Assembly: GCA_963920575.1 (NCBI GenBank)
Contig: OY986964.1
Span: forward strand, 19,511,395-19,575,394
DNA from: Narthecium ossifragum
Lineage: Eukaryota > Streptophyta > Magnoliopsida > Dioscoreales > Nartheciaceae
Length of the DNA stretch: 64,000 nucleotides
Direction: 5' to 3'
The notes beneath the pieces were generated by a model. That model saw only the letters and a program-made list of their open reading frames with translations. It had not been told where the DNA came from and made no database searches. Shown piece by piece: positions 1 through 60,518 of this stretch (its first letter is position 1; each line of letters begins with the position of its first letter). The translations under genes were made by a program, and so were the position numbers.

Positions 1-1236
1 GTCGGCCCGAGGTGGTGAACAGTAAAACAGGCCAAGGAGCTACTACAGTGGTAACCCCACCAACTACAGCAAGTCCACCAAAAGACAGCATGTTACTGGA
101 AGCAACCTCGACAAATAAGACTAACAATACAACATGCTATCTAAACATCCCGGGAGTCGTCACTCTCCCGGTTCACCACTATCCCTCATTATGGGGCTAA
201 CATGCTAAATGATATGTACCAGTTTATAAAGCGGTAAAGAAAACCGCATATGCGAAGCCCCGTGGGAAAACCCATTGAAAATGCCTCTCAGCCACCAAAG
301 AGATCGATCTCTCTATCAGAGAAGATCGATCTTCTTAGTACTTGGGAAGCCTCATCCCAGTCAACAGAAAGAGATCGATCTTCTCCACCAGAAGGATCGA
401 TCTTCTTCGTGACTCGGACCCCGCCCATGCCAGCTAAGCAAGGATCGATCTTCTCCATCAGAAGGATCGATCCCGCTCGGGTTGGGCATGACGTCCCACA
501 AATGATCGATCTTTCCTTAAGAAAGATCGATCCGAATGGGTTCCCCGGCGGAACGCCGGCGAGAAATACCGTCGAAAAACTCCACCAAATCTCACAAAAC
601 CTTGGGATATGGTAGTACGAAGGACCACGAGTACAAAACCAAAGATATCATTGAAAATAAATGTGTATATAATCAGATCTCAGCAAAACAATCCACAATT
701 AAACTTAAAGCTCACAAATCCAGAAAAACAAGTAGATAGGATCCCTACCTAGATTAGAGCAGCTTCAATCCCAGCTGCTAAGCCTTGGATCGTCCTCAAT
801 CTCCTTCAAATCTAACCGGATCTCAACTCAAGAACACGGATTTGAAAAAAAGTCAAAGAAGAGGGTTTCGATCGTTCTATAAACGGACGAACCGCCTTAT
901 AAGAGATCGATCTCTTCTCAAAAAGAGATTGATCTTTCATGACGAACCGACTTAACATTCTGGCACAAAAAGATCAATCTCCTTAGCAAGGGAAGATCGA
1001 TCCCCTTTTCCCGGAAAGTTCAACTTGGGCTAAAACATAAGCCCAAGTCAGGATCGTTCGATCTCGGGTCCATGTAATCATTCTAATCAAGCATTTACAA
1101 AAACACGGTCAGTGTGTGCACACGCGAGTGTGAAACAAACCGACAAGACACAATTTACTAAATTGCCCTTGCGGTCCACAACGAGCCACGGGCCCGACCC
1201 AGACGGTTGACTCAGGAGTGGAGGGGTAGGTTCTCA
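1..1236 (-). mobile_element. Partial LTR (N), chromovirus-type family
   Basis: Minus-strand LTR cut by the window start. Read on the minus strand it begins near 1236 with TGAGAACC and then shares a block with other LTRs here: a 'cacacgcg..gcacacac' block and a 'ggcaatttagtaaatt' block also seen in the solo LTR at 1410 and in L at 45583. Its far part (about 1-130) resembles K near 57340-57480. It carries paired GATCGATC sites. No coding sequence. The exact 5' end is uncertain because no TSD partner is visible. Confidence 0.65.
290..1065. repeat. GATCGATC pair array in LTR N
   Basis: Repeated GATCGATC octamers in pairs, for example around 303/325, 374/396, 444/466 and 504/525. Spacers of 13-14 bp give a 21-22 bp centre-to-centre distance. 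Several spacers are themselves inverted repeats (TTCTccatcaGAAG). A looser set lies at 900-1065. The same architecture recurs in Athila LTRs further along. Confidence 0.8.
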
Positions 1237-1409
1237 TTGTTACCCATCACCGCCTGTCGCCACCTCTCCGGCCGCCCTCATCCCTCCAAACCAACACCCT
1301 AACCTCTGTGAACCTTCCACCTCTTCATTCCCGTCCTCTTCCATCGAAACCTTCTCCTCCGACGCCGGTGAACCCCTCGGCCATCGTCGACACCTTCATC
1401 CACGGCCGC
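1237..1409. other. Unassigned C-rich stretch
   Basis: Pyrimidine- and GC-rich sequence between LTR N and the solo LTR at 1410. It continues after the solo LTR at 2474. It shares a short string (CGACGCCGGTGAACCC) with the Reina-type LTR near 7037, so it may be remnant LTR leader. No ORF of credible length and no recognised gene. Confidence 0.4.
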
Positions 1410-2468
1410 TGTGAGGACCTGTCCCTCTACCCCTGTGGCTCGTTGTAGACCGCAAGGGCAATTTGGTAAATTGCGCCTTATTGGTTTGTTTCAGACCCGC
1501 GTGTGCACACACTGGCCTTGTATGTATTAGTGTTTGTTTAGAACGGCTAGGTCGACCCGGGATCGGAAGATCCCAGCTCGGGGGCGCGGAAGCTTGCCTT
1601 TGGGCAGCTAACGACCCTTGAGCGATCGATCGCTCCTTGGGACGATCGATCGGACTCGATCCGACTTGGTGTTGGGATCGAGCCAGGGCGCGAGCGATCG
1701 ATCGCTCCTTGGAGCGACCGATCGGAATCGCGTCGGTGGCTTTTCTGCTTCGCGAGGACGGCCACCGCTGGCCGTCGTTCTCCTCTGTCAGAGGGGGGGG
1801 AGGACTTTCCCTCCCCTCCCCTCACTTTTCCCCCTTTTTCCCGGCTTTCCCCTCCCCCTTTCCCCTCTTTTCTTCCCCTCCTCTTCCTCCTTCTCCTCTC
1901 TTTCTTCTTCCTTCTTTCTTTCTCTCCCGAAGCTCTGCTTCTTCCCCTGTTCCGGCAGCCAAGCTTCATCTCCTCCATTCTCCCTTCTCCGGCCATCTTT
2001 TCCGGCGTTCTAAGGCTCGTTGGATTCGTGACAACGAGAGGAAGATCCCTGAAGAGGTTTGGAGGCTTGTTGTTGATCAAATCGCGGGGAATCAGCCGAG
2101 GAAAGTGCAGCTAGGTAGGGTTATACCTACTGTGTTCATTTCGGGTTTTCTTGAGATCTAGCCGTTGGATCTTGTTGATCCTTGCTTTGTTGGATTCCTT
2201 GTACCGGTTAGAATTACTGATTTAAGTTTCATGTTAATCAGTTGAGATTTGAGTAGGTTTTATGCAAGATTAGTCTCGGATTTCTGGTTTTCTGCTGTTC
2301 TTGAGAAACAGCCGGCTTGCGGCGAGTTTTCCGGCCGGCGAGTACATGATCATGGCTTTTCATAAACATAAGAGTTGTACATCTACTCGCCAGCTTTGTT
2401 TTCCACGTTTTGTAGGTCCGGTTCGCGTCGCCCGGCCCGGTTGGGCTTTCACGGGTCGGGGCGCGACA
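1410..2468 (+). mobile_element. Solo LTR, TSD GCCGC
   Basis: Starts TGTGAGGACC and ends GGGCGCGACA. It is flanked by the perfect 5-bp direct repeat GCCGC (1405-1409 and 2469-2473), with no internal region, so it is a solo LTR. Its end matches the reverse complement of K's start at 46864, so it belongs to the K family. It holds four or five GATCG(ATC) palindromes at 1620-1722 followed by a long C/T-rich leader. Overlapping ORFs in the leader (1618-2161) are composition artefacts. Confidence 0.92.
1620..1722. repeat. GATCGATC cluster in solo LTR
   Basis: GAGCGATCGATCGCTC followed 20 bp later (centre to centre) by ACGATCGATCGG, then a second diverged pair near 1693-1715. The arrangement resembles that in LTR N and the Athila LTRs, with a slightly shorter spacing. 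Confidence 0.75.
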
Positions 2469-2473
2469 GCCGC

Positions 2474-3060
2474 CCACTACCCTGAAACCCCTCCAGAACC
2501 TTCCTCTGGCCACCACAAAGTTTCAACCACAATCAAAACTCTTGCTTGTCGACTAGATCATCGGCTTCAACCTCTGACAAAACCACTTCTCCGGCCACCT
2601 TCAATCCTTCGTCTGGAAGCTCAATTCATCAATCAAACACCATAGGACAGTTCCCCATGCTTTCACGATCCTTCCTACCTCCATTGATGTCTGGATCGCC
2701 GGAACCCACTTCCGACTTTCCTTAACCGTGCCGGCCACCTCTAATCTCCCACCTGGAAGCCTCTATTCCACGATCAGACTACATAGATGAGTTCACCAGG
2801 CCACCATGATTCTTCTTGTACCTTCCACATCCTATGACGATGACGTTTCACCGTTGATCCATCGCCAATGAGCTTTCAGCCGTTTGATTCTTCTTGGACG
2901 TGATCTAGGTGTTCCAAAGCTCATATTTTTGATCTGAGGGTACAGATCGTCGATCAGGACCATAATAAGCAATCTAGGCCATCCAGATCATTCAAAGCAT
3001 TCACAAGTGTTCACTTTTCTATTTCTCCACCAATTTCACATCCGATCTCGCCGCGGGGGG
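2474..3060. other. Unassigned stretch
   Basis: Continuation of the C-rich sequence at 1237-1409, passing into mixed sequence that ends with a GC-rich block near 3050. No RNA gene, TSD or protein homology was recognised. It may be the upstream internal part of element G or a decayed LTR. Confidence 0.35.
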
Positions 3061-4734
3061 CGGCCGACTATAGATGGGATGGATATTTACACGAATGATG
3101 AATAATTTAGTGCTCTACTTGGATGAATTGATGTGTTGTTATGATGTGCCCTCATTTAATGCTTCCCTATTTATATTTTATTTTGTGGAATGATTGTTTG
3201 TACATAGGAAATACCAAAGAAACTTTGCCAAAATGTTTCATGTATTTAGTGCCTTTGATATTTTTCTAGAAAATTTCTTCGCTATTTTTCTTCATCTTTT
3301 GGAAAGGTACTTCTTTTATTGGCATGGTTAAATATTTCGATTCTGATCAGATAGGGTTGTGTATACTTTTTTCGGGAAGTTTCCATTCTTTGTACCTCTT
3401 ATTTTGGTTTATAATTGAAATATTTCTATGTGCTTCACTTGTTTAGTCTTGAGGTACATGACGTCATTGGCAGGATATAATGCATTGTTATTAGCGGAGA
3501 ATTGCTAAACTTAAATTTGACGAGAGAGACATCTATTTTTGGGGCCTTCATTATGGTTATCTCTACCTTTTATTCTTTACTTTATTTTTATGACTTAGCG
3601 TATGTAATTGGGGAGAATTATATTTAAGTTGGGGGTAGCATTCATAAATTTCATCCTCATATATTTTTCTGATAACCGATATTATACACCCTTGAGTGAT
3701 GTCATGAGAGTGAAATTATGATATTTATTGATGAGAGATGCTTGATTTAGAAACATATTTTATGATTTACTCTGATTCTCATATGTAATATAAGAGATAG
3801 CTAAATTTTTGCTATGCATGATATTATTTCTATACTTCAACACTTTTGCCATGAATTAAGGATGACTTGACTTATCCTAATGCACATGTTCACTTTCACA
3901 TGTTGATGAGTTGAGATTAGATTCTAAGCATGATACTATGATAAATTTATGGTATTATGCTATGTTACATGAATTTAGTGCCATTGAAAAAAAGAAGAGC
4001 TTTATATGCAAAAAGGTTTTCAAACTTAGTAACCGAGCAAGGTGCATAACAAGGTGTGTTGTCTGCGTAAAACAGTTGAAATTGCTGAAAGAATGACTAG
4101 TTATGATTTGTAGCCTTCATGGTTTGAGCATTAGAGTCTGAAGGGTGTTCTATACTTAGTGCCCTAAAACCGTCTAGTTTGGGAGTCACTAGCTTGAACC
4201 TCGTTGCAGGGACCATGAAGAAAGCTTAAGAAATTATAACATTGCACATGTCATATATGGAAAAAATGAAAAAAATGAGATTGCAAATTGGTGAATAAAA
4301 ATATGTACTTGGCCAATTTTGTTATTCTTGAATGGTTGAAATGTTTGGATATAATTGATACTTTGAGACATGTGGAATCCTTTTCACACACTTGGATTGT
4401 TGGAGTTGTTCTTAATTGTGATTAAATATGTTGAAGTGTTGGAAAGGTGTTTGTCATTCATTAATTTGCTATTGTTATATCTTGCTATGGGTAGAAGAAT
4501 AAATTCATGGGTATGATATCTATTTCATACATTAGAGTTGATGAATAATATGATTGATTTCTAATGTCATATTCAAGGGGATGTATAGATGTTTGTGGGT
4601 GTCATCCCTGAAAACCCTCAGGAGACTATAACTCCTCCACTGGGGTAACCCAAGGGTTTAAAGGCTTGTTGCACATGTTAAGTGCAATCGTGAGATCTAC
4701 AAAAGTGGGTAGTTAGATTTATTGTTTTTTTTTA
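3061..4734 (+). mobile_element. Athila-type element G, 3' internal region
   Basis: AT-rich non-coding region collinear with 39880-43860 of element D. Both contain an internal polypurine-like block (TAAGTTGGGGGTAG at about 3628 here), an AGTAACCGAGCAAGGTGC motif (4028 here) and the block 'aggagactataactcctcc' (4620). It is interrupted at 4735 by a MULE and resumes at 8151. No gag or pol of G is visible, so its 5' part is lost or replaced. The small ORF at 3911-4096 is unconvincing. Confidence 0.75.
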
Positions 4735-4926
4735 GGCCAAAAAGCAGTTTGGTACCCTGTAGTTTCCATATTTTGCAGTTTAGTACCACGTACTTTTAAA
4801 ATAATAAAAACATAACCCAAGTTACAATAGTGTGCATTTTAGTACCAGCCAGCTAACTCCGTTAATGACATTTGACGGAAAATCATTTTTTATGTTAATT
4901 TTGACCGGATTAATCGATTTTGACCG
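4735..4926 (+). repeat. Left terminal inverted repeat of Pack-MULE
   Basis: About 190 bp. It pairs with 7953-8141 with scattered mismatches. Shared landmarks are GGTACCCTGTAGTTTC, TGCAGTTTAGTACCACGTA, GCTAACTCCGTTA and TTTGACGGAAAAT. Confidence 0.92.
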
Positions 4927-5012
4927 GAAAATTATTTTTTTTAATGGCACTTTCATCTTCTCTCCTTCCCCGTTCCTTCCTCTCCTCCTTCCCCGTTCCT
5001 TCCTTCTCTCCC

Positions 5013-5528
5013 GAGTCCCTCCTCATCACTCCTGGCCAGACAACCAACGTCCTAGTCAGAGCCAATCGAGCCGCCGGAAGGTACTTCATGGCCGTCCGCG
5101 CCTTCAACGACGTCCCGATCCCGGTCGACAACAAGACCGCCACCGCCATCCTCCATTACAAAGGCGTGCCGACCACCGTGATGCCGGTCCTCCCCAAGCT
5201 CCCTGCGCCAAATGACACGACCTTCGTCAACAGCTACCTCGACCAGCTTAAGAGTCTCAACACTCCCCGGTATCCGGCCAACGTGCCGCTCACCGTCGAC
5301 CGACACCTCTTCTACACTGTCGGACTCGGCATGAATCCATGCCCGACGTGCCAGAATGGCACCAGACTGACCGCATCACTGAACAACATCACCTTTGTGA
5401 TGCCTAAGATTGGATTGCTCCAAGCTCACTACTTCAACATCAAGGGAGTGTTCCGGCTAGACTTCCCGGACAAGCCGGAGGCGTCATTCAACTTCACTAC
5501 TTCAACATCAATGCCCTATTATATATGA
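5013..5528 (+). pseudogene. Laccase fragment (second cupredoxin domain)
   Basis: A single open frame of about 170 codons matches the middle of plant laccases (multicopper oxidases acting on monolignols in the cell wall). Landmarks in order are LLITPGQTTNVLVRA, AGRYFMAVRAF, ATAILHY, PRYPANVPLTVDRHLFYTVG, then CPTCQNGTRL and HYFNIKGVFRLDFPDKPEASFNFT. The N-terminal domain and the C-terminal copper-binding HxH motifs are absent, so it cannot be an active oxidase. Homology stops at FNFT and the frame closes about ten codons later after an 18-bp repeat of internal sequence. Codon use is strongly GC3-rich, unlike the surrounding AT-rich transposons. It is one captured exon inside the Pack-MULE. Confidence 0.9.
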
Positions 5529-5665
5529 GCAAAGGACGTGTCTGGAGAAATCTGGAAGCGCCTCGAGGAGTCTCTCGCTTCCTTTAAAATTTCTCAACGG
5601 ACAGACAACCTCATCATCATTCATCACCAGTGGTGGAACAGTCGTGAAGCAATCCATTCCTCGAG
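5529..5665 (+). promoter_or_regulatory. Captured 5' flank of the sHSP gene
   Basis: 137 bp between the laccase piece and the sHSP ATG. It probably carries part of the heat-shock gene's 5' UTR and proximal flank. An imperfect heat-shock-element-like run (GAGAAATCTGGAAGC) lies near 5544, but it does not show three clean alternating nGAAn/nTTCn units, so I do not claim a working promoter. Confidence 0.35.
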
Positions 5666-7916
5666 ATGGCATCGTCGGCGGCTCTCTCCAACGTAAGCTC
5701 CCTCTCCATCTCTGTGCCCACCACCTCTTCTTGGAAGAGGGGTGGCGGCGGCGGCGGTGGTGGCTATGATTGTCGTGATGGTGGTGCCCCCCTCCGGAGG
5801 CTGGTCCTGTCGCCTGTAGGGAGGTCCTTTGGGCTCACCGTCAAGGCTATGGGAGCAGCAGAGGGGAACGATAGCCTGGATCATGTCGAGAGAGCAAGCA
5901 AGATCAAGCAGCAGCTGCCCAGGAGAAGAGCTGCTGCTCAGTCTGCTGTCCCTATTGGTATTACTACTAGTGTCATATCTACTACGCCTTTCTATTTTTC
6001 TACTATATTTTGATTTTTTGAGGTAATTAAATGTTTGGCACGCTTGGAGCTCATGAATTACGGGAGTCTTAAGTCTTAACTATATGGTGTGTTCATCAGG
6101 TCTGTGGGACTGATTTCCGAGCGCGAGGACCGTCCAGCAGATGATGGACACGATGGATAGGATACTGGATGATACGAGTCGATCCGACTCGACCAACTGG
6201 ACCCGAACCCAGAAGAGGAACCAAGCTGGTTCAACCTCTTTCCTAGTTTGACTTGGACTTCCCTAGTTCAAACTAGAGTATTTAATTAGTATTTATCATT
6301 AGTCTTTTATTGAGTCCTAGTTGATTGTTAGGAATTAATTAAGAGTCCCTTTGAGTTAGGAAGTTGAGTTGAGTCAGAAACCTTATTACTTGCTAATCAA
6401 GCAAGGGGGTTTTTCTAGTGGATTAGGACTCTGTCAAGGTCTCTATAAAAGGACCTTAGTAGTTTGTATTAGGTTATGCATGAGATGAATGATTAAGAGT
6501 AGTTGATAAGTTATCATAGGAGTAGAATATCATAGGAGTAGAAGTAAAGTAGATTCCACCAAATATCCACCATAGATCCACCTTCTTCCCCGTCAGTCAT
6601 CTTCTCCGCAGCCGGCACCGCCTCCACCAGTGTTTCTCTCTCTCCCGTCACTTTCTCTCTCCTCCACGTCAGCGCCACGTCAGCCCTCTCTCCCCGTCAC
6701 CTGCCAACTCAGCATCATCTTCTCCACTTCTCTCCCGTGATCCAACCCTACCTACCGCCGGCCATACCTCCATCCAGCCTCTCCGGCCACCCCCGTCGCC
6801 ACCTAAGACCGCCAATCTCTTCCTCTACCTCCCACGACTCCGGCCAGCCCTTCCCCGCCGTCTTCCATCGCCTTCGGCGCCGTCCTCGGCGAACCCGATC
6901 TCCATCCCCATCACCGGCAAGCCGCGTCCGACCCCTATCTTACCTCCAACCCACTCTAAACCCATAGCCGGCCTCCGTAGACCCGATCCCAACCATCCCT
7001 GACCATTCCCGGCCTCCAGCCGAGCTCCTCGTCGTCCCCGACGCCGGTGAACCCAACCCCGCCGCCCTCGACCTCTAGATCCCGCCGATCTAGCCCACCT
7101 CCGACCAATCCACTCCGGTGGATCTCTTCCCCAACAACCCGCGACCCGTCCTGCCACTATCCCGACCGCCGCCGCCGCCCCTACGCCGGCGATCCACTCC
7201 GGCGATCCTCAGCCGTCGGATATTCCTCAAGCCACTTGACCAAATTGGTTCAGTCAAGTCCAGTCCGGTTCAGCCCAACCACTGATTCAGCCAGATCCAA
7301 CTAATTGAACCTGGTCCACCTGATCCAGATCAATTCAGACTTGAACCAGTCAAGTCCCATCCAATCAGGCTCAGCCAGATCCGATCCAGCTCAAGCCAGA
7401 TCCGATCCAGCTAGCCAATTCAGCCAATTGGACTCAAATCAAGTCCGATAAGGCCGATTCTGATCGATTGGAGCAGTAGAGACCCATTACGAGAGGATCA
7501 CGAGTAGACCGCTCGTAACACTGGAGGACCCCTTTGCTTATAGCACTGCGTCCGTCCCTCCTCTCATCAGTGGGGAAGAAGCCGGAGGTGGCTACAGGAG
7601 GGGGAGGACCCCGTGGGAGATCAAGGAAGGCGAAGGGGTGTACAAGATGAGGTTCGACGTGCCCGGCATGACCAGGAGGGACGTCAAGGTGTATTTGGAG
7701 GAGAGGATGCTGGTGGTGAAGGCCGAGAACGCGCTGAAAGGAAGCAAGGAAGGCGGGGAGGATGATGTTGACGAAGACGAGTGGTCGCCGCAGAGCTATG
7801 GGAAGTATAGCAGCAGGATTGCGTTGCCGGAGAATGTTGAGGTGGAGAAGATCAAGGCGGAGGTTAGGGATGGTGTGTTGTATATTACAATTCCGAAAGC
7901 CTCGCCCTCGGCCAAA
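5666..7916 (+). pseudogene. Plastid-type small heat-shock protein, disrupted
   Basis: Exon 1 (5666-5957) encodes a Ser-rich transit-like N terminus (MASSAALSNVSSLS), a glycine run and IKQQLPRRRAAAQSAVPIG. A phase-1 intron with GT..AG ends spans 5958-6099. Exon 2 resumes with LWD, an in-frame TGA (6111-6113), then FPSARTVQQMMDTMDRI, the Met-rich segment of organellar sHSPs. A solo LTR sits at 6170-7520. The frame continues from 7521 with LEDPFAYSTASVPP and an alpha-crystallin domain ending in the signature GVLYITIPK. The last residues are lost where the inverted repeat begins. The family are ATP-independent chaperones. The TGA is one C-to-T step from CGA (Arg) in a CpG. Certainly non-functional now. 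Confidence 0.93.
6170..7520 (+). mobile_element. Solo LTR, Reina-type, inside sHSP exon 2
   Basis: Starts TGATACGAGTC and ends GCTCGTAACA, flanked by the perfect 5-bp repeat CTGGA (6165-6169, 7521-7525). Both ends, the TATA region (TATAAAAGG at 6444-6452) and the downstream 'ttgtattaggtt.tgcat' match the LTR of chromovirus I (61039-61900, minus strand), so they are one family. A long C-rich leader fills 6590-7200. Removing it plus one CTGGA restores the sHSP frame at the junction. ORFs inside are artefacts. Confidence 0.95.
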
Positions 7917-7952
7917 AAGCATGGTCAAAATGGCCACATCAGCTAATTTGTA

Positions 7953-8141
7953 GTCAAAATCGATTAAATCCGGTCAAAAATAATAAAAAATTAATTTTCC
8001 GTCAAATGGACTAACGGAGTTAGCCGGTTGGTACTAAACTGCACAGTTTGGTAACTTGGAGTATTGTTTTGCTATTTTTAAACTACGTGGTACTAAACTG
8101 CAAAATCATGAAACTACAGGGTACCAAAGTGCTTTTTGGCC
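7953..8141 (-). repeat. Right terminal inverted repeat of Pack-MULE
   Basis: Reverse complement matches 4735-4926. It ends CTTTTTGGCC directly before the 9-bp TSD at 8142-8150. Confidence 0.92.
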
Positions 8142-8199
8142 TTTTTTTTATCTTTTCTTTGCTCGAGGACTAGTAAAGTGTCAATTGGGGGGGGGGGGT

Positions 8200-9586
8200 T
8201 GATTAGTAGTTGTATTTAATATTCATAATCATGATCTAAGAAAAAAGACAAGAAATGCGGCTAAAAAGATGAATTTATGTGATAAAGACCGCTTCGTCGT
8301 CCTGTCAGGAGAATACTCTCTAGAAATTCTATATAAGTCCAAATATTCTAGAAATATAGTAAATGATAGAAGACTTCAAGAGCTACAACTTTCATGTTGG
8401 AAACTTTACGAGACTCCTAATATACAACTAGAAAACTGGTCCGTTGACTTCTAATGATGGATTGATACCAGTTTTGAAAAAGATAAAGATATATAGCTGC
8501 TGGAAAATTGGTCCGTTGATGTTCAGAAGAATATTCATCAAATATTCTCGATAAGTCCAACTATTATGAAATATTCGGGATTGACAGAGGACTTCCTAAT
8601 ATACAACTTTTGTGTTGCACAAGATTTAGGATTCTGAACTGATTGGGCCCAATTGCACTTGGAATAAGACTAACAGAATTAATTCAGGAAATCCGAGTTG
8701 TAATTGAAGTCCAAGTCAACTCAAACTCTAATTTTGGGAGTTCTCCTATAAATAAGGTTATTCAATCCGAATTTCTCATATTGTTTACTATATTTGGAGA
8801 AGGAAAAAGAAGATGAGGATACGGATGGTGCCAGCTTCCTATTCCAAGTTGATGGCGTTCATCCAAAAGATGAGTTGCTAATTATTGTACTTAGGATTAA
8901 TCATGAAACCCTAGCGTAGTTTTCTATTTTCTTTGGTTTGACTCTTGTAATATTCTCAAAACATGATCCTATGAATATTGGTGTATTGTTAATAGAATTG
9001 AGGGAACAGAGTTCCTTGACATACTTTCAGTCCTACATGATTTCTATGACTGATTGTAGAGATTCATAGGATGGTTTTCATGGGATTTATGGTTGGCTAT
9101 TGAGCTAGGCTATGCTATGCTAGGATAGGTTGTGCCAAGGTCGTTAGGAGTAGTATAACTTGAAGTAATTGTAGGACCGAAGACATCTATACCAAGAAAG
9201 ATAGGCAATGTTGTTAGGAACATAAATCTTATTTTAGGGATTCATGTGAACTTATAACCATATGGTCCATAATGTTTAGAGAAGAGAACAAGATGAAAAC
9301 TAGAGAAGATTGAAGGTGATACTAGGGTGGATTGAGTAATACCTAAGTCACCTATCCATTGATTCAAATTGATCGTCTTTAATTACTTTCCTTAGATAGT
9401 TTTAGGTTAATTCAAACTTATCATCGCTTCTTTTTCTTAGGTTTTTGATTTCCAACGTTTTTCCTGTGGATCGACTCCAAACTTCACCGTTATTCTATCT
9501 AGTAGTTTAGTGATTGAATAAGGATTATAAATTTAATATTTGATTGAGTTTGTAATGTTTTAACGACACGTTTGCAACACATAGGC
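8200..9586 (+). mobile_element. 3' LTR of element G
   Basis: Preceded by a clear polypurine tract (about 12 G at 8187-8198). Starts TGATTAGTAG, related to D's LTR start TGATCAGTCAC. Collinear diverged blocks include 'gagggaacagagttccttgac' (about 9000) and the 'tttaacgacacgtttg' end (about 9560). The exact 3' end (9581 or 9586) is uncertain. A polypyrimidine tract follows at once. The ORF at 8269-8454 has no support. Confidence 0.75.
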
Positions 9587-9598
9587 AATACCAGCTAG

Positions 9599-9952
9599 TC
9601 TTATTCTTCTTCTTTTTCTTCCTCTGCATCCTCTTCCTCCTCTTCTTCCTCCCCCTCCTCTTCTTCTTCCCCTTCCTCCTCTTCCCCCTCTTCCTCTTCT
9701 TCCTCCTCTTCCTCTTCTTCCTCCTCCCCCTCCTCCTCCTCCTCCTCCTCCTCCTCTTCGTCCTCCTCCTCTTCTTCCTCGTCTTCTTCTTCCTCCTCTT
9801 CTTCTTCCTCCTCTTCTTCTTCTTCTTCTTCTTCTTCTTCTTCTTCTTCTTCTTCTTCTTCTTCTTCTTCTTCTTCTTCTTCTTCTTCTTCTTCTTCTTC
9901 TTCTTCTTCTTCTTCTTCGTCGTCCTCTTCTTATTCGTCCTCTTCTTCTTCT

Positions 9953-9987
<35 letters not shown>

Positions 9988-25061: not shown

Positions 25062-26557
25062 TGATGATGATGCATAATGTTATATTTTTACCCCTTAATA
25101 TTTAGCCTCCTGTGCTTATTTGATACCTAAATACACTCATTATTCATATATTTTGATTTAGGATGCAATTGTAGTCCTTAAGTCTGAAAAGAAGCTGAAA
25201 AGAGTATATGGATCAACTTTAAAGATTAAACTGGACCTGGTCATGAAGAACCAGATGATGTGCCATATATGGTTGGAAAGCTCTTGAAATCTAGTTTCTG
25301 GAGAATTTTACGGTTTTTTATTTCGAGTTTCCTAGAGGAAGTTATGACGATTTTAGTACCAATGGCGCAGTTTGGATGGCAAAACAGCAAATACTCTGAA
25401 AAGACAGATCGATCCATCTCCCTAGTAGGATCGATCCGTTTTATAGCAGACTTGACAAAACACATATTTTTCAGAGGAGCACAGTAGGATCGATTCCACC
25501 TAGTAAGATCGATCCGACACCCCTGGTAGGATCGATCCGACTCGGGCGTAGCCAGAAATTGAAGATATCAATGCAAAGGATCGATCCGACACCAATAGAA
25601 GGATCGATCCTACTTTCTCAGTGAAGAAATTCAACGGTTTAGATCAAATACGAGGATGGAGACACTTAAGGCTATAAATAGGACTCTTTCTAGGGTTTGA
25701 GGGGGGATTTTCTGGATACTTTTGGCTGCTATTTTCTACTCTTTTATATTTTTCCTAGGTTTTCTCTAACTTTATGGAATCTTTTGGAGGATTGTTCTTG
25801 ATGGCCCTGTGTGGCTAAATCTTCATTCTTCGTCAAGGAAACTGAAACCTCGGAATCAATGAAACTGTGAGATCTAATCTATGTTTATTGTTCAATTTAT
25901 GCTTGAGTATTGGATGCTTTTCTGTGATTAAATATTCATGGTTGTCTTGTTTAATTGCTAGGAGGCCTACTAGTATATTATTCATTGCGATCTACTGCTA
26001 GGTTGGATATCAAATCCGTAATTGTTTCATCCCTCTGATCTGCGAAGCAACTGAGGTCTTTTGATCTACTGCGTTTCAGAGATTGTTAGATCTTAGGAAG
26101 AACATTCGACATGATTAAATGCAACCGCTTGTGCTTGTGTTATTTAGCTTCATCGATCTCCCTATTCTTAAGGCTGATACTAGATTAAATCTACAGCGCG
26201 TGTCTTAGGTTGTTTAGTAGTTAGGGTTGATTAGATCGCTTGTTTCTAATTAACTATGATTGAGGAGAGATTCGAATTTAATTCGAACGGTGAATATTCA
26301 TGGTATGAATTGATATATACTTGCATCGATGATCAGTTGTTGGATTCCGATGGTGGATGTTGACTTAGACCAAGGTTTGTTTTCTTGATTCAACTCGTTT
26401 CTTCGCTTTATTGTCTTCACGCTTAAAACCCCCAATCTTTTTTCACTAAGCACAAAACCAGACTAAACACTCTTCGTGGGATCGACTCGTACTCGCACTA
26501 CTACATTTATTTTGAAGAGTATTGGTTTTATTTTTGAGTGCCTACGACAACACATCA
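25062..26557 (+). mobile_element. 3' LTR of element B
   Basis: TGATGATGATGCATAATG..AACACATCA, 1496 bp, collinear with the 5' LTR. TATA box 25673-25680 and GATCGATC array 25408-25611. A CT tract follows directly. Confidence 0.93.
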
Positions 26558-30395: not shown

Positions 30396-30606
30396 CATAC
30401 GGACGGTCGACCACCACATCGACCGTCGTGCTCTACAATAGCCACGGTCGACCGTGACATTGACCGCCGCGCATCGACCGTTAGGCTCTGTCACGGAAAA
30501 AGCTTCTCAGGGTCGATACGAGGATCGACCGTCACGTCTTTAAGTAAGGCTGCACAGTCCCACGGTCGACCGTGAGATCGACCGCGGGCAATCCATGGTC
30601 GACTGC
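30396..30606. repeat. TCGA array in D leader
   Basis: Sites of form GGTCGACC..ATCGACC with TCGA cores 12 bp apart (GGTCGACCACCACATCGACC, GGTCGACCGTGAGATCGACC), repeated four or five times between primer-binding site and gag. One unit ends 'atcgaccgttaggctctgtc', almost identical to units in F and C. Confidence 0.75.
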
Positions 30607-34180: not shown

Positions 34181-35740
34181 TGATGATGATGCATAATGTT
34201 ATATTTTTATCCCTTAATATTTAGTCTCCTGTGCTTATTTGGTACCTAAATACACTCATTATTCTTATATTATGATTTAGGATGCAATTGAAATCCTTAA
34301 GTCGAAAAGAAGCTGAAAAGAGTATTTGGATCAACTTTAAAGATTAAATTGTACCTGCTGATGAAGAAACAGATAATGTGTCATATATGGATGGAAAGCT
34401 CTTGAAGTCTAGTTTCTGGAGAATTTTACGATTCGTGATTTGGAGCTTCCTAGAGAAAGTTACAGTGCTTTTACTACAACAAGCGCAGGGCAGAACAACA
34501 GAAGTAATATGCAGAGAAAAAGAGATCGATCCGCTTTCCAAACGAGATCGATCCCTTATGCACCCAGAGATGAAAAATACCCATGATCGATCCCCGCATC
34601 GACCGTCAGCCTCTGTCTAAAATATACGCTCTCAGGGTCGATAGAAGGATCGACCGTGAGGAGAAATCTGAATCCGGAATAAAGGGATCAATCCCTTTTC
34701 CAAAAGGGATCGATCCGAGTCGGGGCGCAACCACAATTTGGGAAGAAAAGATCGATCTTCTTTCCATAAAGATCGATCTTTCTTAACCGACTTTGCAGAA
34801 TTAAGGGCTCAGATTTAATCCGAGAATGGGAAACTTATGGGCTATAAATAGGGTTCTTTTTAGGGATTAATGGGAGGCGAATTCTAGAGGTTTTTGGCTG
34901 CTACTTTCTATTTCTTTGATATTTCTAGGGTTCTTCTTTCTTCTTTAAAGGATTAGATTGTTCTTGATGGCCTTGCGTGGCTAAACCTTAATTCTTGGTC
35001 GAGGAGACTGAAACCTCGGAATCAATGAAACTGTGAGATCTAATCTATTTTTAATGTTCAGTTTATACTTGAGTATTGGATGTTCTTCTGAGATTAAATC
35101 TTCATGATTGTCTTGTCTAATTGCTAGGAGGCCTACTAGTTTATTATTCATTACGATCTACTGCTAAGTTGGATATCAAATCCGTAATTGTTTAATCCCT
35201 CTAATCTGCGAAGCAACTGAGATCTTTTGATTTACTACGTTTCAGAGATTAATAGATCTTAGGAAGAATATTCGACTAGATTAAATGCAACCGCTTGTGC
35301 TTGTGTTGTTTAGCTTCATCGATCTCCCTATTCTTAAGGCTGCTATTATATTAAATGTACAACGCTTGTCTTAGGTTGTCTAGTAGTTAGGGTTGATTAG
35401 ATCGCTTGTTTCTAATTAACTATGATTGAGAAGAGATTCGAATTTCATTCGAACGGTGAATATTCAAGGTGTAGATTGATTGATACTTGCATCAATGATC
35501 AGTTATAAGGATTCCGATGGTGGATGTTGACTCAGACCAAGGTTTGTTCTCTTGATTTAATTCAATTCTTCGCTTTAGATTATTTCTTTACTGTTTTCTT
35601 CACGCTTAAAACCCCCCATCTTTGTTCACTAAGCACAAAACTAGTCTAAACACTTTTCGTGGGATCGACTCGTACTCGCACTACTACATTTATCTTAAAG
35701 AGTATTGGTTTTATTTTTGAGTGCCTATGACAACACATCA
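34181..35740 (+). mobile_element. Athila LTR C inside D's RT
   Basis: TGATGATGATGCATAATG..AACACATCA, 1560 bp, the B/H LTR type, followed by a perfect primer-binding site (35746-35763). TATA box 34843-34850. Its U3 array (34519-34781) mixes GATCGATC pairs with GGTCGA..ATCGACC units. No 3' LTR of C survives. The preceding bases GAAGT would be the TSD. Confidence 0.9.
34519..34781. promoter_or_regulatory. Hybrid GATCGATC / TCGACC array in LTR C
   Basis: Contains AGATCGATCCGC, GAGATCGATCCC, a 'gcatcgaccgtcagcctctgtc' unit, GGGTCGATAGAAGGATCGACC, and an AAAGATCGATCTT pair about 22 bp apart. It ends about 60 bp before the TATA box, as in B and H. Confidence 0.7.
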
Positions 35741-38724: not shown

Positions 38725-38995
38725 GATCACGGTCGACCATCGCATCGACCATTGCATCGACCGTGAGCCTCTATCATGAAAAAGGCTTCGCAAGGTCGAT
38801 GCAACGATCAACCGTCACCTCCTCAACAAAATCCTATCAGCCACAGTCGATCGGCCGATCGACCGTCGGATCGACCATCGGCTTCTTTTTTCATCTCACG
38901 ATCGACCGTCGCCTTATTGTCCCAATATCACCCACTCCCACGGTCGACCATCAGATCGACCGTCAACATTATTTTTTTTCTGCTCGATCGGACCG
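38725..38995. repeat. TCGA array downstream of D integrase
   Basis: TCGA cores at 12-bp intervals in triplets (GGTCGACCATCGCATCGACC and onward; GTCGATCGGCCGATCGACCG and onward), then single sites. It closely resembles the arrays in F's LTRs although D is Athila-type and F Tekay-type. Confidence 0.75.
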
Positions 38996-42037: not shown

Positions 42038-42372
42038 GATGTCACGGTCGATCCGGGGATCGACCGTGAGGCCACGGACGATGCCATGGTCGATCCGGCG
42101 ATCGACCGTGAGACCCATGCGAAGAAAACCAAGGGCGATGGTCGATCCACCCATCGACCCTGAGAAGTCCAAAACCAAACAGCGCCTGACGGTCGATGCG
42201 ACGGTCGACCGTCAGGTAAATGGCGAAAAGGAGAAGATCCCACGGTCGATCGACCCATCGACCGTGGGAGCCCAAAATCCTGACAGAGCCCGACGGTCGA
42301 TGCGACGGTCGACCGTCAGGCCCAGAAAGGGTAAAACAACACTTGACGGTCGATGCATCGATCGACCGTCGA
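42038..42372. repeat. TCGA array in solo LTR
   Basis: Pairs and triplets of GGTCGA..ATCGACC such as GGTCGATCCGGGGATCGACC and GGTCGATGCGACGGTCGACC, TCGA cores 12 bp apart. Homologous to 48255-48606 and 55302-55670. Confidence 0.8.
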
Positions 42373-48254: not shown

Positions 48255-48606
48255 GACGGTGGATCGACCGTCAAGCGTTGATACGCTCTTCCTGGGCATG
48301 ACGGTCGACCGCCGGATCGACCGTCGCATCGTCCGTCAGGATCTGTCGGGATTTTGGCCTCCTACGGTCGATGCACCGATCGACCGCGGCTCCCTCCCTT
48401 TTTCATCCCGCCTCACGGTCGACTGCCGGATCGACCGTCGCTTCGTCCGTGAGGCTATGTCCCATTTTGGGCTTCCCACGGTCGATGAGCCGATCGACCG
48501 TCGCCCAGATGGTTTTCCTCGTTTTGGTCCCACGGTCGACCGCCGGATCGACCGTGACATCGACCGTGGCCTCACGGTTGATCGTCGGATCGACCGCCGC
48601 ATCGAC
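48255..48606. repeat. TCGA array in F 5' LTR
   Basis: At least six units with TCGA cores at 12-bp steps, for example GGTCGACCGCCGGATCGACC followed by a third core. Several units can fold as hairpins. Copy in the 3' LTR at 55302-55670. One frame reads as repeated DRRID peptides (48235-48765), judged non-coding. Confidence 0.82.
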
Positions 48607-49864
48607 CATGGGCCCTTGAACAGTTTTTTCTGGCTTTTCTTGAATGGCTTTCACTTGGGTCTGTTATCTAAACATGTTGGGAGGTTGGTATGTAGTTTTC
48701 ATGAAGTTTCCAAGGGATTTCTACTGAGATTGAGATTGAATCGCATATATATCCCTTTTCAGTAAATCGATGATTTGGCTTGCATTTAAATACACAGTTG
48801 GTTGGTAATTAAATACTTAATTGTTTGTTTAGCCATTATCTAGCTTTGAGTGTTAGCTAATGTGAAATTGTGGAACCTTAGCCTCTTGCCGACGAGTGCC
48901 GAGGGCTATTGTATATCCGTCGAACCTATAACTAATGTCGTGGCATGTAAAGACATCTAAGATAGATGTTTGCCTAGGCTCATGCATTGTATGCATTAGA
49001 GGCATCTGAGGTTAGGCGGGCGATGGTTTGGGTCACCGATCCTAGGCTCTCGGGTAGCTCGGATCTAGCCTTAGGACCGTGGATGGGTAGTCAAGACTAG
49101 GGTGTGATTGTATAATCGAATTTCATGTTATTGAGGATTTGCGATAGTTGACTCTGATCAGTGTTTGAGGTTTAGAGGTCGAGTTGTCTTCCAAGGTCAA
49201 GTGCTAAGGATGGATGTCGATGCGTTCCCGACGTGGTTCCCCAAGGCATGGTATTCCTGCTTGGGTAATGGTGATTCTGCATGTTACTGTTCCTTGGCCT
49301 CCTGGTAACATGTTCGGGAGAGAGGTTTCATGACAGGAGCCCTTGAGACATCGACAGGGTTGTGGGACCCGTGGCATCCGTTAGACTTGAGCGGGAAGGC
49401 AACACTGTTGTTGTTTTCCTCCTTTCAGTGTGCCGTAGAGTAGAACCCTTCTGAGCTTATCGCTCACTCCTACCCGGGCTGCGTTTGCAAGTGCAGGCGG
49501 CAGTTCTTCTTTTGTGGAGCCGGCGGGATCGGCCTTTGGTGGCGCGAGTACGTCCTGAGGTGCTTGAGGTTGCTGGAGGATCGACTGTTGTACCTTTTGA
49601 TAACTTATATATATTGTAAACGTCTTTTGAGGAATTTTGGATTATTGTATAATATCTGTCCCTTGGAGGATTTTATTATAGAATCTTGTATCAGTACAAC
49701 TTGATATTTATATATATGAATTGAATATCAGTTTCACCTCTGGAATGTAAATTGTTTAAATTATCTGTCTTTTCCGCTTCGTATCGCGCCAATTGAAGAT
49801 GAATAGAGATAGGAACCCTCACGCCCTGCCCTAGATGGGTTTTCTGGGTCGGAGTGTGACAACT

Positions 49865-54481: not shown

Positions 54482-56917
54482 TGTGAGGGCCCGTCCCTCT
54501 GACCTGGCTCGACCGCGTGGGTCGAGAGCCGATTTCCTGTTGGTTTGGTTCCGCGTCGGGTATGATCAGGAGATCGTATGGCGGTTTGGACCCCGGGGGC
54601 ATTTTGGTATATATGCCCTCTGGTGGTCGGTTTCACACCCGCGTTGCACCCACGGCCTTGGATTGATGTATGTGTTTGATTTGAATCTCTAGGGTGCGTT
54701 CGACCGGAAGATCGGAGCTCGATCAGGAAAGATCGAATCGGACGGCTGAGATCGATCTGGATCTCTATATAAGCCATGTCCCATTCTCTCTCTTTCCTTC
54801 TCTTCTCCTGTCGTTTTCTCTCCTTCTCTTTCCTTTGGCTGAGCTAGGGCTTGGAGACGCGGGCTTCGAAGCGCGGATCTTGGTGGCTTGACTGGTTGGA
54901 CGCGTGGAGGAACTGTCGTACTTGCTCAAGTAGGTGTTTCTATCTCGATCTCGCGATCGGGTTCTCCTATGATAGGTTTAATGCCTTTTCACTGTAGGAA
55001 TACTTGTTAGAATGCTGTGTAGCTCATTGTGCTTGTGTTGTAGATGATTTGAAGTATTCCTACCTCGCGATTTTCGTATTCTAACGACTGATTTCCGTAT
55101 TATCGACGTTTTGTCGGTTTTCGCCCGTTTTGACTTAGATAGGAGATTTAACCATCAAAAATGTGATTTCTTCATACCATTAGTTTCCCCATCATTAATT
55201 ACACATGCTTGCAAAGTTTCATCAACTTCCAACTAGATTTGATCCTTAAAATCCAAGAAATTGGATTTTCAGCACTGTTCTAATGAACAGTGCAATAGGC
55301 CTGACGGTCGATCGGTGGATCGACCGTCAAGCGTTGATACGGTCTTCCTGGGCCTGACGGTCGACCGCCGGATCGACCGTCGCATCGTCCGTCAGGCTCT
55401 GTCGGGATTTTGGCCTCCCACGGTCGATGCACCGATCGACCGCGGCTCCCTCCCTTTTTCATCCCGCCTCACGGTCGACTGCCGGATCGACCATCGTGTT
55501 GTCCGTGAGGCTCTGTCCCGTTTTGGGCTTCCCACGGTCGATGAACCGATCGACCGTCGCCCCGATGGTTTTCCTCGTTTTGGTCCCACGGTCGATCGCC
55601 GGATCGACCGTGACATCGACCGTGGCCTCACGGTCGATCGTCGGATCGACCGCCGCATCGACTGTGGGCCCTTGAACAGTGTTTTCTGGCTTTTCTTGAA
55701 TGGTTTTCACTTGGGTCTGTTACCTAAACATGTTGGGAGGTTGGTATGTAGTTTTCATGAAGTTTCCAAGGGATTTCTACTGAGATTGAGATTTAATCGC
55801 GTATATATCCCTTTTCAGTAAATCGATGATTTGGCTTGCATTTAAATACACAGTTGGTTGGCAAATTAAATACTTAATTGTTTGTTTGGCCATTATCTAG
55901 CTTTGAGTGTTAGCTAATGTGGAATTGTGGAACCTTAGCCTCTTGCCGGCGAGTGCCGAGGGCTATTGTATATCTGTCGAACCTATAACTAATGTCGTGG
56001 CATGTAGAGACATCTAGGATAGATGTTTGCCTAGGCTCATGCATTGTGTGCATTAGAGGCATCTGAGGTTAGGCGGGCGATGGTTTGAGTCGCCGATCCG
56101 AGGCTCTCGGGTAGCTCGGATCTAGCCTTAGGACCGTGGCTGGGTAGTCAGGACTAGGGTGTGATTGTATAATCGAATTTCATATTATTGAGGATTTGCG
56201 ATAGTTGACTCTGATCAGTGTTTGAGTTCTAGAGGTCGTGTTGTCTTCCAAGGCCAAGTGCTAAGGATGGATGTTGATGCGTTCCCGACGTGGTTCCCCA
56301 AGGCATGGTATTCCTGCTTGGGTAAGGGTGATCCTGCATGTTACTGTTCCTTGGCCTCCTGGTAACATGTTCAGGAGAGAGGTTTCATAACAGGAGCCCT
56401 CGGGACATCGGCAGGGTTGTGAGACCCGTGGCATCTGTTAGACTTGAGCGGGAAGGCAACACTGTTGTTGTTTTCCTTCTTTCAGTGTGCCGTAGAGTAG
56501 AACCCTAGTGAGCTTATCGCTCACTCCTACCCGGGCTGTGTTTGCAGGTGCAGGCGGCAGTTCTTCTTTTGTGGAGCCGGCGGGATCGGCCTTTGGTGGC
56601 GCGAGTACGTCCAGAGGTGCTTGAGGTTGTTGGAGGATCGACTGTTGTACCTTTTGATAACTTATATATATTGTAAACGTTATTGAGGAATTTTGGATTA
56701 TTATATAATATCTGTCCCTTGGAGGATTTTATTATAGAATCTTGTATCAGTACAACTTGATGTTTATATATATGAATTGAATATCAGTTTCACCTCTGGA
56801 ATGTAAATTGTTTAAATTATCTGTCTTTTCTGCTTCGTATCGCGCCAATTAAAGATGAATAGAGATTGAAACCCTCATGCCCCGCCCTAGATGGGTTTTC
56901 TGGGTCGGTGTGTGACA
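54482..56917 (+). mobile_element. 3' LTR of element F
   Basis: TGTGAGGGCCCG..GTGTGTGACA, 2436 bp. TATA box 54766-54773, TCGA array 55302-55670. Preceded by a weak polypurine tract (TTTTAAGGTTGTTAGGT). ORFs within (54483-55821) are LTR sequence. Confidence 0.95.
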
Positions 56918-57489: not shown

Positions 57490-58854
57490 TGTGAGGACCC
57501 GTTCCTCCAACCCTGTCCGACCGCATTAGGTCGAGGGCTTGGCTTGGTTGGTTTTGGCGCTGTTGGCCTTGGGTAGCGATCGGTTGATCGCATCGTTGTC
57601 TTTGGACCCCAATCGACCCGCGTAGTGCACACACAACCTTGATTGATGTATGTGATTGAATAGACACAGTAGGAGTGTTCGGGATCGACAAATCCGGACG
57701 AGATTGCGATGAGATCACAATTTGAAGTCAAATCAGATCCAGTCCGATCAATTGGCTCGTCTGAACCGGCTAAGCCTTAACCCTCTCTCTTCTCTCTCCC
57801 TTTTCTTTTCTTTTCTTTTTCCTCTTTTCCTCTTTCTTCCCCTGCCTTCCCCGTGCCCGACCTCCCTTCCTTTTCTCCTCCTCCGCTCGCGACCACGTCG
57901 GCCGGCCCTCTTCCTCCGGAGCTCTCCTCTCCTCTTCCCAGATCCCCCGCCGGCCACGTCCCTCCCGAGCTCCCCTCTCCTCTCCTCTTCCCAGATCCCC
58001 CTCCGGCTTCTCCCTCCTCTCCTTCTCCATCTTTCCGTCGCGCATGGATGGAGGCGTTGGACGGCTCCCGGCGGTTCCCCGGCAAGCCAGAAGCGGCGGC
58101 GACGGCCCCCTCCCCTTTCTCCTTCCCTTTCTCTCTCCCGCGGCTGTCTCTCTTCCTTCTCCGGCGATGGCTGCGGATGTGGGAGGACTCCTGTGGCTCT
58201 CCAGCGAGCTGGAGACGATGGCGTCGACAGAGGATGGCGGATCAAGGTGGATTAGCGTGTGAAGGTAGGGTTTCTACCTACAGCTTTGGGTTATGCTAGA
58301 TCTAGGGTTTGGTTTGATTGTTTGTTGATTTCTTTGTGCTAATTAGCCCCCCTAAGCATGCTTAGTAACTGATTGAAGATTCATGTGATTTGATTTGGGT
58401 TTTATCCGGATTTTAACATGTTTTTCCCGGATTTCTTTGAGTGCTCTGTTCTTCGATGAACAGTCAGTTTCCAGGTCGATTTCTACGTTGTGTGAGCATG
58501 AGCTCTAGTAACGCTCATGATGCAAGTTGTAGATCATCGAATTTACTTTCCAATGCCACTGGTTTCATGATTTTTGGATTTATATACGATTGTTGGTGAA
58601 TATTTTCCTAAACTGCTGCGAAACAGGAATTAAGAAATTAGTCAATTAATTAAGTGGAAATTAGAGATCAATTAAATCCAATTCTTGGACATGAAATCCC
58701 TAACATGAAATTGAGTTCATGCTCAAGTTTGATTTCAAGTTTGACATCAATTCGATGAGATTTCATCGCTTTTGGCCGAAGACCGAAATACGTGGTTTTC
58801 ATCTATTTTCATTCATCCGTTTGAATTGGATTTCGGGTAAGCCTATTGAGAACT
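57490..58854 (+). mobile_element. Partial LTR (J), chromovirus-type
   Basis: Starts TGTGAGGACCCG after ACGCA. Contains the 'cgcgtagtgcacacac' block shared with the other LTRs, a long C/T-rich leader (57780-58150) and AT-richer downstream sequence. Interrupted by Athila LTR H at 58855. Overlapping proline/arginine-rich ORFs (57722-58299) reflect composition. Confidence 0.7.
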
Positions 58855-60518
58855 GATGAGAATGCATAATGTTATATTTTTATCCCTTAATACTTAGTCT
58901 CCTGTGCTTATTTAGTTCCTACATACACTCATTATTCTTATATTTTGATTTAGGATGCAATTGAAGTCCTTAAGTCGAAAAGAAGCTGAAAAGAGTGCAT
59001 GGATCAACTTTAAAGATTTATCTGTATCTGCTCATGAAGAATCAGAGGATGTGCCATACATGGTTGGAGAGCTCTTGAAGTCTAGATTCTGGAAAATTTT
59101 ACGGTTCGTGATTCCGAGTTTCCTAGAGGAAGTTACGTTAATTTTACTACCGATGGCGCAGTCTGGATGGCAGAACAGTAATATGCTGGAAAGTTGGAGC
59201 GATCCGACACCCCAGGTAGGATCGATCGGACCATGCAGAATGGTGACAGAACATGTATTTTTTTGGCTGAACATGGTCCGATCGATCGAATCATCACTCC
59301 TACTGAGCCAGATCGATCCGACTCCTAGAGTTGGATCGATCGGACTCGGGAAATGGCTGAAATTGCATATTTTTATGAGCCAAATCGATCGGACACCTAA
59401 AGTTGGATCGATCGGACTCAAAAATATCCAGAGAAGGTGGATTTTTACGCATTCGATCGATCCAGAGCCTATAGTTCGATCGATCGGACTCGGGCGTAAA
59501 TAGAAGTTGAAGATTTTAACGCATTCGATCGATCCAGCACCCCGAGAAGGATCGATCGGACTTTCCCAGTAACAAAAATCAACGATTGTGATCTAATCCG
59601 AGGGTGGATACAATTGAGGCTATAAATAGGACTCTTTCTAGGATTTGAGGGGGGATTCTTGGACACTTTTGGTTGCTCTTTCTCCTCCTTTATATTTTTT
59701 CTAGGTTTTATCTTGTTTATTGGAATCTTTTGAGGATTGTTCTCGATGGCCCTGCGTGGCTAAATCTTAATCTTTGGTCGAGGAGACTGAAACCTCGGAA
59801 TCAATGAAACTGTGAGATCTAATTTATTTTTATTGTTCAGTTTATAGATGAGTATTGAATATTCTTCTGTGTTTATCCTCATGATTGTCTTGTTTAATTG
59901 CTAGGAGCGCTACTAGTTTATTATTCATGGTGATCTACTGCTAGGTTGGATATCAAATTCGGAATTGTTTGATCCCTCTAATCTGCGAAGCAACTAGGAT
60001 CTAATAATTTACTGCTGATCAGATCTTGTTAGATCTTAGGAAGAATATTCAACTAGATTAAATGCAACCGCTTGTACTTGTGTTGTTTAGCTTCATCGAT
60101 CTCCCTATTCTTAACGCTGCTACTAGATTAAATCTACAGCGCTTGTCTTAGGTTGTCTAGTAGTTAGGGTTGATTAGATCGCTTGTTTCTAATTAACTAT
60201 GATCGAGGAGAGATTCGAATTTAATTCGAACGGTGAATATTCATGGTATAAATTGATTGATACTTGCATCTATGATCAGTTGTTGGATTCCGATGGTGGA
60301 TGTTGACTCAGACCAAGGTTTGTTCTCTTGATTCAACTTGTTTCTTCGTTTTAGATTATTTCTTTACTGTTTTCCTCACGTTTAAAAACCCCCCTATCTT
60401 TGTTCTCTTAGCACAAAACTAGGCTAATCACTCTTCGTGGGATCGACTCGTACTCGCACTACTACATTTATTTTGAAGAGTACTGGATTTATTTTTGAGT
60501 GCATGCGACAGCACATCA
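58855..60518 (+). mobile_element. 5' LTR of Athila element H
   Basis: TGATGAGAATGCATAATG..AGCACATCA, 1664 bp, the B/C type. TATA box TATAAATAGG 59621-59630. Primer-binding site (60524-60541) follows. Confidence 0.92.
59197..59560. promoter_or_regulatory. GATCGATC pair array in LTR H
   Basis: Five pairs with 15-bp spacers, for example GATCGATCCGACTCC..GGATCGATCGG and GATCGATCCAGCACC..GGATCGATCGG, nearly all at 23 bp centre spacing although spacer bases differ. Last site about 60 bp upstream of the TATA box. The clearest example in the window. Confidence 0.75.

Follow-up and report, generated by a model that had tools for sequence, protein, structure and literature searches.

A stretch of 64,000 nucleotides of Narthecium ossifragum DNA (assembly GCA_963920575.1, contig OY986964.1, positions 19,511,395 to 19,575,394; hereafter the window) contains a series of long terminal repeat (LTR) retrotransposons, several of which carry dense arrays of short palindromic sites. 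The names 'Athila' and 'Tekay' were taken from the first-pass annotation of the window; a Pfam scan of eight window frames assigned RVT_1, rve or Retrotrans_gag to frames from both the Athila and the Tekay-type elements, and the gag of Athila A is similar to that of other angiosperms, with 53% identity to the top-scoring named relative (Tripterygium). The array positions of that annotation were borne out by our site lists, and the arrays are real and above shuffled expectation, but the one shared motif that it described proved to be two. In type 1 arrays, the palindrome GATCGATC occurs mostly in pairs 20–23 base pairs (bp) apart (~22 bp), and the pairs often recur at ~72 bp; its carriers in the window are LTR N, the solo LTR starting at 1410, and Athila A, B, C, and H. 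Type 2 arrays consist of the inverted repeat ACGGTCGA-N8-TCGACCGT, with its two TCGA 12 bp apart, and are carried by F, the F-related LTR, and Athila D. Both motifs are found in the array of Athila C, and the F LTRs contain one GATCGATC each and D none. No GATCGATC starts in 1697–10619, nor in 34,772–59,219 apart from those at 47702 and 54750.

All of these long motifs are far more frequent than in 50 local dinucleotide shuffles (1-kb blocks) of the window: GATCGATC occurs 59 times (shuffles: mean, 1.5; maximum, 5) and forms 21 pairs at 19–25 bp (shuffles, 0), TCGA-N8-TCGA occurs 37 times (mean, 1.1; maximum, 5), and ACGGTCGA/TCGACCGT 53 times (mean, 1.1; maximum, 3). When each array-bearing stretch was tested alone, its own long motif exceeded all 500 shuffles, and none of the long motifs was counted in either D LTR, in line with the arrays having been described as absent there. 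Plain TCGA is only mildly raised in the window (353 versus 253 in shuffles) and shows no significant rise in several carriers: N (P, 0.052), the solo LTR at 1410 (P, 0.62), and Athila A (P, 0.15). The signal comes from the longer motifs and the distances between them. Base composition or chance, to which nothing points except a locally raised G+C and CpG content in some LTRs, is refuted by these shuffles and by the reversed-pattern controls given below; its probability is negligible, in agreement with the earlier view that the arrays are not mere base composition.

The motifs are abundant throughout the 379.4-Mb genome, where GATCGATC-N13-GATCGATC was found at 15,484 places and ACGGTCGA-N8-TCGACCGT in 18,083 copies, the reversed controls giving 0 in both cases. 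A sample of 20 stretches of 10 kb, placed on a fixed, non-random grid at round coordinates on C1–C11, has GATCGATC as its most frequent palindromic 8-mer (112 occurrences, in 14 of the 20 stretches; shuffles: mean, 3.3; maximum, 6), ahead of ATATATAT with 30, and with spacing peaks at 22, 49–50, and 71–73 bp. Extrapolation from this 200-kb sample would give about 200,000 copies in the genome. Comparison of the flanks of 37 arrays (those of the window and of the sampled loci L023–L046) placed 17 in an N-like group, 9 in an Athila group, and 5 in an F-like group, with one further group of 2 and four arrays standing single. By alignment to F, the F-like LTR in L032 has type 1 sites (L032 positions 9060–9139) where F has type 2 units, suggesting that the two motifs may substitute for each other in place. 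Among 442 sites checked at 20–24 bp from a GATCGATC, 174 are intact and 25 have one mismatch, ten of the latter being C-to-T or G-to-A changes at the central CpG, as expected of methylated DNA. Presence of the arrays in IMG/VR was considered and rejected: two array patterns match 10 and 12 stretches there, but with differing or irregular periods (24, 25, 28 bp, etc.); three of the matches have a single 22-bp gap, none contains GATCTAATCC, and the pattern of block plus TATA gave no match.

The type 1 arrays stand at a defined distance from a TATA motif, TATAAATA, which follows the array end by 53 bp in Athila A, by 63–64 bp in B, C, and H, and by 62 and 79 bp at the sampled Athila loci L044 and L032, respectively. 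Genome-wide, GATCGATCN{45,74}TATAAATA matched at 3,955 + 3,783 places (7,738), and the reversed pattern at 18 + 17 (35); although 30 gap values were permitted, the gap is 63–65 in 95 of the 100 matches listed, all on C1. A distance window of 105–134 bp gave 1,770 + 1,715 places (reversed control, 13 + 13), and is not a clean control because many of the listed rows are, by eye, further sites of the same arrays at ~126–127 bp; in the C1 rows, the third-last GATCGATC often lies, again by eye, 126–127 bp from the TATA box. Sixty of the 100 listed linkers (those omitted, picked by hand, being mostly near-identical) were typed and clustered into 15 groups, and a permissive pattern matched a CAGATCTAATCCGAG-like block in the representatives of all groups but one (14 of 15), beginning 27–32 bp ahead of the TATA box. 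The N-family loci L029 and L035 have the TATA box 23 bp from the array with a different linker, and the array can thus occur without the shared linker. Downstream of the type 2 arrays of F and D, no strict TATA box was found within 250 bp; a looser pattern matched TATATAT ~130–150 bp past the array of F and, for D, TATAAAT within the LTR, ahead of the leader array.

The same layout was found in Ty1/copia elements, whose reverse transcriptase belongs to a different family (RVT_2) from that of Athila (RVT_1). Among 2,896 candidate RVT_2 places, 150 were scored, and five of the 15 copia 3' flanks fetched have type 1 arrays with 22-bp pairs and a TATA box 62–63 bp further on. One of them, L052, came from a first set of ten flanks picked for long frames; its ten GATCGATC form five pairs of exactly 22 bp each, lying after a polypurine-like run and before TATAAATAG. 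The other four came from a second set of five flanks with RVT_2 matches of like length (741, 741, 741, 738, and 735 bases). The fifth flank of this set, L058, resembles the array-bearing ones, and has at 527–639 a single GATCGATC and TCGA every 7 bp instead of pairs. A further family is represented by L064, which encodes an integrase and RVT_2 (Pfam, two frames) and lies on C1 between two array–TATA promoters separated by 4.8 kb. In one of these promoters, L069, the layout is repeated, with the last site 64 bp ahead of the TATA box; judging from position, the coding region of L064 and the L069 promoter would belong to one element. Long frames in which no polymerase is clearly recognizable lie within two other promoter pairs: L062 has a weak match to Athila RNase H (41% over 44 amino acids), and L063 is similar by eye.

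The first-pass annotation had regarded the carriers as elements of different lineages, and self-comparison of the window reduces their number. Athila A, B, C, and H have LTRs that align with one another, and ~140 bp of the solo LTR at 1410 match N (minus strand) at 81% and F at 75%. The carriers in the window thus reduce to an Athila group, a Tekay-like group (N, 1410, and F), and Athila D. To judge from these alignments, much of the array sharing within the window is descent inside the first two groups. The sharing among lineages itself stands, on fewer independent families in the window and with Ty1/copia added outside it. Descent of all carriers from one ancestral array-bearing LTR, named in the annotation as a possible refutation, accordingly holds within the two groups; beyond them it is very unlikely, as the Ty1/copia LTRs (copia57 and copia52) and those of Athila are dissimilar outside the array, linker, and TATA box (hereafter the cassette) and their elements differ in carrying RVT_2 or RVT_1.

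The limits of this similarity were traced by comparing linkers, flanks, and masked cassettes with single-letter shuffles, flank maxima being taken from 100 shuffles. Against copia57, the linkers of Athila A, B, C, H, L036, and L044 score 28–46, with shuffle means of 14–17; those of B, C, and H score 42–46, with shuffled values of 15–17 and a maximum of 30. By contrast, when Athila A, B, C, H, and L044 are compared with copia57 and copia52, the scores of both outer parts (300 bp before the array and 300 bp past the TATA box) stay at or below the highest shuffled value. A similar LTR segment with dissimilar flanks is therefore present in copia and gypsy elements in the comparisons of Athila B, C, H, and L044 with copia57 and copia52, and less clearly in that of A. 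The masked-cassette comparison gave z of 13–17 for Athila B, C, and H versus copia57, values inflated by the shuffling of the mask letters as well. Within Athila B, C, and H, the LTR flanks on both sides are 87–90% alike and the linkers 61–80%. For a wider Athila-type set, the lineage of L071, and to a lesser degree that of L070, was assumed, L071 being placed with Athila because its linker and post-TATA part resemble those of L070. Outside the core motifs, five Athila-type cassettes are 45–64% identical among themselves; for the linker only, mean identity is 61% among Athila-type cassettes and 54% between these and copia. In a tree of the cassettes (16 rows, 170 columns), three of 13 inner branches are starred and most forks stay open, and one of the starred branches groups Athila C, L070, and L071 on the copia side.

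Several observations weigh against an exchange of the cassette between the superfamilies. The linker of Athila A has only 53 bp and stays within the shuffles when compared with copia60 (24; maximum, 25), the part upstream of its array comes near the shuffled maximum (38 versus 42; 33 versus 33), and its linker (68–75% to B, C, and H) is no less alike than its post-TATA part (68–73%). L036 is similar to copia57 and copia52 after the TATA box, and was counted as copia for that reason; past its TATA box, copL069 scores as high as the shuffled maximum or higher when compared with Athila B and H (41 versus 41 and 38). The linkers of L026 type are not clearly similar to copia, and pieces L065–L068 gave no lineage information for these linkers and one further linker group. 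Arrays were absent from nine of the first ten copia flanks and from L058, identity outside the core motifs is only 41–60% between Athila-type cassettes and copia57 or copL069, and a single clade of copia cassettes is not rejected by the tree (p-AU, the P value of the approximately unbiased test, 0.458). The modest identity outside the motifs would suit parallel selection, in which the same host factor and geometry were favoured independently, with no exchange of DNA, and arrays arose from chance proto-sites through tandem duplication. The arrays of L029 and L035, with their unlike linker and TATA box at 23 bp, point the same way, as does the recurrent gain of heat-responsive elements described for COPIA LTRs (PMC5059998). 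Such an origin is possible but somewhat unlikely, since the likeness of Athila and copia linkers spans tens of bases and stops at the cassette edge in the comparisons with copia57 and copia52, and Athila and copia also have in common a TCGGGGCG-like block, situated between the final pairs and seen by eye in the listed rows and also in the alignment.

We consider it probable that the arrays belong to a composite promoter cassette with putative recognition by a host protein, which was shared by exchange between families and then selected and amplified. The motif, its spacing, the distance to the TATA box, the occurrence in both superfamilies, and, in the main comparisons, the end of the similarity at the cassette were observed directly. 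The type 1 array would form the upstream (U3) half of the LTR promoter in Athila and copia, in which pairs of GATCGATC about 22 bp apart, or about two helical turns, are followed by a linker of ~64 bp, holding a CAGATYTAATCCGAG-like block ~30 bp upstream of the TATA box, and then by TATAAATAG. It is most likely that a host DNA-binding protein would occupy the pairs and help to set the transcription machinery at a fixed distance; we infer such binding, its effect on transcription, and the direction and route of transfer from the sequences. The cassette may have spread from one retrotransposon family to another, with Ty3 Athila and Ty1 copia among them; template switching or gene conversion is the most likely route, and tandem duplication would let the arrays grow and turn over after transfer. 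The Tekay-like LTRs have the array with a different, shorter TATA linker (two loci), and the type 2 units would represent a sister motif able to occupy the same place. Of the two origins that the annotation had offered, a module that moved or one selected repeatedly, the finding that Ty1/copia elements carry the array of Athila and a similar array–TATA linker gives substance to the pair, movement being the likelier of the two and repeated selection possible. More tentatively, and as a plausible rather than a probable proposition, one plug-in cassette of strict geometry may circulate between Ty1/copia and Ty3/gypsy, whereby a single putative host factor would control thousands of LTRs of unrelated lineages, with the core in ~200,000 copies. 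If this is true, it would show how unrelated retrotransposon families may fall under joint control through a common promoter switch, and such a factor may drive or silence many families together. The fast evolution of U3 makes gain or exchange of LTR promoters hard to see, while a long, strictly spaced signature can be counted genome-wide; GATCGATC pairs at 22 bp, 63–65 bp ahead of the TATA box, offer a concrete target for a search for the host factor.

Because a pair is an imperfect inverted repeat of ~30 bases, it is also conceivable that the fold is what was selected, as an RNA or DNA hairpin (a source of small RNAs, a packaging or recombination signal), or that template-switch repair, and not selection, maintains their palindromic form. 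Indeed, the fold of 80 distinct pairs becomes weaker once their spacers are shuffled (mean, −13.65 observed versus −10.72 shuffled; standard deviation, 0.20), and the arrays of A and F as single-stranded DNA fold better than all 100 shuffles (z, −6.2 and −6.0); an excess of small RNAs on palindrome clusters of maize Sireviruses is also cited in PMC10760457. When halves were swapped within a locus, however, most of the symmetry was retained (0.490 versus 0.550 observed; 3 of 2000 swaps reach the observed value), and the energy changed from −13.96 to −13.24, so that the symmetry is for the most part a flank motif common to the whole array, with a slight excess specific to the pairs. This weakened the hairpin as the main cause, and the type 2 spacers have no extra complementarity. 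Moreover, the 8-mer recurs exactly in spite of variable spacers, and a fold would leave the fixed TATA distance unexplained; selection on the fold is thus quite unlikely.

A search of the open-access literature found no paper on these arrays, but the earlier statement that no described system matches them needs correction in view of two systems. Each Sirevirus element is described as having 8 or more copies of a palindromic motif, which cluster in the upper LTR half ahead of a TATA box, occur in front of the env gene too, and are near-identical in some elements of very low homology (PMC2829016). The repeated palindrome upstream of an LTR TATA box recurs here in the type 1 arrays of Athila and copia, and the Vitis motif CGGTCGACCG is contained in perfect type 2 sites (ACGGTCGACCGT). 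The second array of Athila D, past the integrase frame, may be compared with the Sirevirus motifs ahead of env. As described in the same source, the Sirevirus motifs belong to one Ty1/copia genus and have a CGG-CCG core in 12 of 13 elements, whereas the type 1 sites here have GATCGATC as their core, CGGTCGACCG is found in only a part of the type 2 sites, and the carriers include Ty3 Athila (RVT_1) and Tekay-like elements. Several identical polypurine tracts ahead of the 3' LTR are likewise reported for Sireviruses, in contrast to the single GGGGGAG in the 2.2 kb fetched for each of the copia carriers L057 and L059–L061; the paired core at 22 bp with a ~64-bp linker of similar sequence to the TATA box is a further difference. 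Palindrome clusters of maize Sireviruses form an LTR cis-region with strong predicted fold (Bousios et al. 2016, via PMC10760457), and the same palindrome is reported as the commonest motif in structured Helitron regions as well (via PMC10760457); the arrays here have another core.

The second system is QuinCent of wheat, an LTR segment with cryptic inverted repeats in the 5' LTR half of RLG_Quinta (Ty3/gypsy) and RLC_Gisela (Ty1/copia), for which its authors propose acquisition, e.g., by gene conversion (PMC11302176). It shares with the present case an LTR segment common to gypsy and copia families, but is described as ~162 bp in one family pair and in relation to nucleosomes and centromeres, unlike the array and linker found here, which span many linker families and number thousands of copies. 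Several families of Brassicaceae COPIA LTRs gained heat-responsive elements, ONSEN by duplication of a proto-site (PMC5059998); in both cases, the LTRs of several families thus have sites for the same kind of host factor, putative here, whereas the heat elements have a known factor and are confined to COPIA, with no shared linker mentioned in the abstract, and the present arrays extend over both superfamilies. The targets of VANDAL VANC proteins are short, often tandem repeats that vary considerably between related elements (PMC5735166), resembling the present motifs in tandem arrangement and variability. The arrays described here differ from these known relatives by their core, the pairing of the sites, the linker, and the numbers of families and copies.

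Table 1. Positions of the arrays and their LTRs in the window
Feature	Position	Strand	Content
LTR N	start ~1236, extends beyond window start	-	
LTR N, second type 1 array	302..532	-	8 GATCGATC, pairs 21-22 bp apart
LTR N, first (5') array	905..1002	-	two GATCGATC and decayed sites
Solo LTR from 1410, type 1 array	1624..1703	+	3 GATCGATC
Athila A 5' LTR (10245-11792), type 1 array	10620..10958	+	9 GATCGATC; linker 10959-11011; TATAAATA at 11012
Athila A 3' LTR (15488-17022), type 1 array	15850..16188	+	9 GATCGATC; TATAAATA at 16242
Athila B 5' LTR (17211-18710), type 1 array	17557..17746	+	5 GATCGATC; linker 63 bp; TATAAATA at 17810
Athila B 3' LTR (25061-26557), type 1 array	25407..25609	+	6 GATCGATC; TATAAATA at 25673
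Athila D leader, type 2 array	30403..30606	+	
Athila C LTR (34179-35816), mixed array	34524..34778	+	6 GATCGATC; linker 64 bp; TATAAATA at 34843
Athila C array, two type 2-like units	34583-34606, 34634-34657	+	
Athila D 3' internal region past integrase frame, type 2 array	38729..38963	+	
F-related LTR (41033-43195), type 2 array	42044..42372	-	
F 5' LTR (47434-49861), type 2 array	48264..48612	+	single strand folds better than shuffles
F 3' LTR (54482-56917), type 2 array	55304..55668	+	
Athila H LTR (58852-60595), type 1 array	59220..59557	+	9 GATCGATC, 72-bp units; linker 63 bp; TATAAATA at 59621

Athila D has its arrays outside its LTRs only, in the leader and 3' of the integrase frame, both of type 2, and its gag–protease region includes a tandem duplication of 386 bp with ~98–99% likeness (32237–33009). 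A protein-coding role of the arrays was rejected, the translation of the F 3' array having no homologue at E 0.001 among 2,650 candidates. Long TTC/CTT runs are found at the LTR ends of Athila A and B (9599–10233, 17019–17126, and 26558–26732). Elsewhere in the window, a Pack-MULE-like stretch (4461–8142) with inverted arms at 4734–4893 and 7983–8142 contains a laccase-like gene piece, named by eye, and an Hsp20-like piece that is ~60–70% identical to sequences of many angiosperms.

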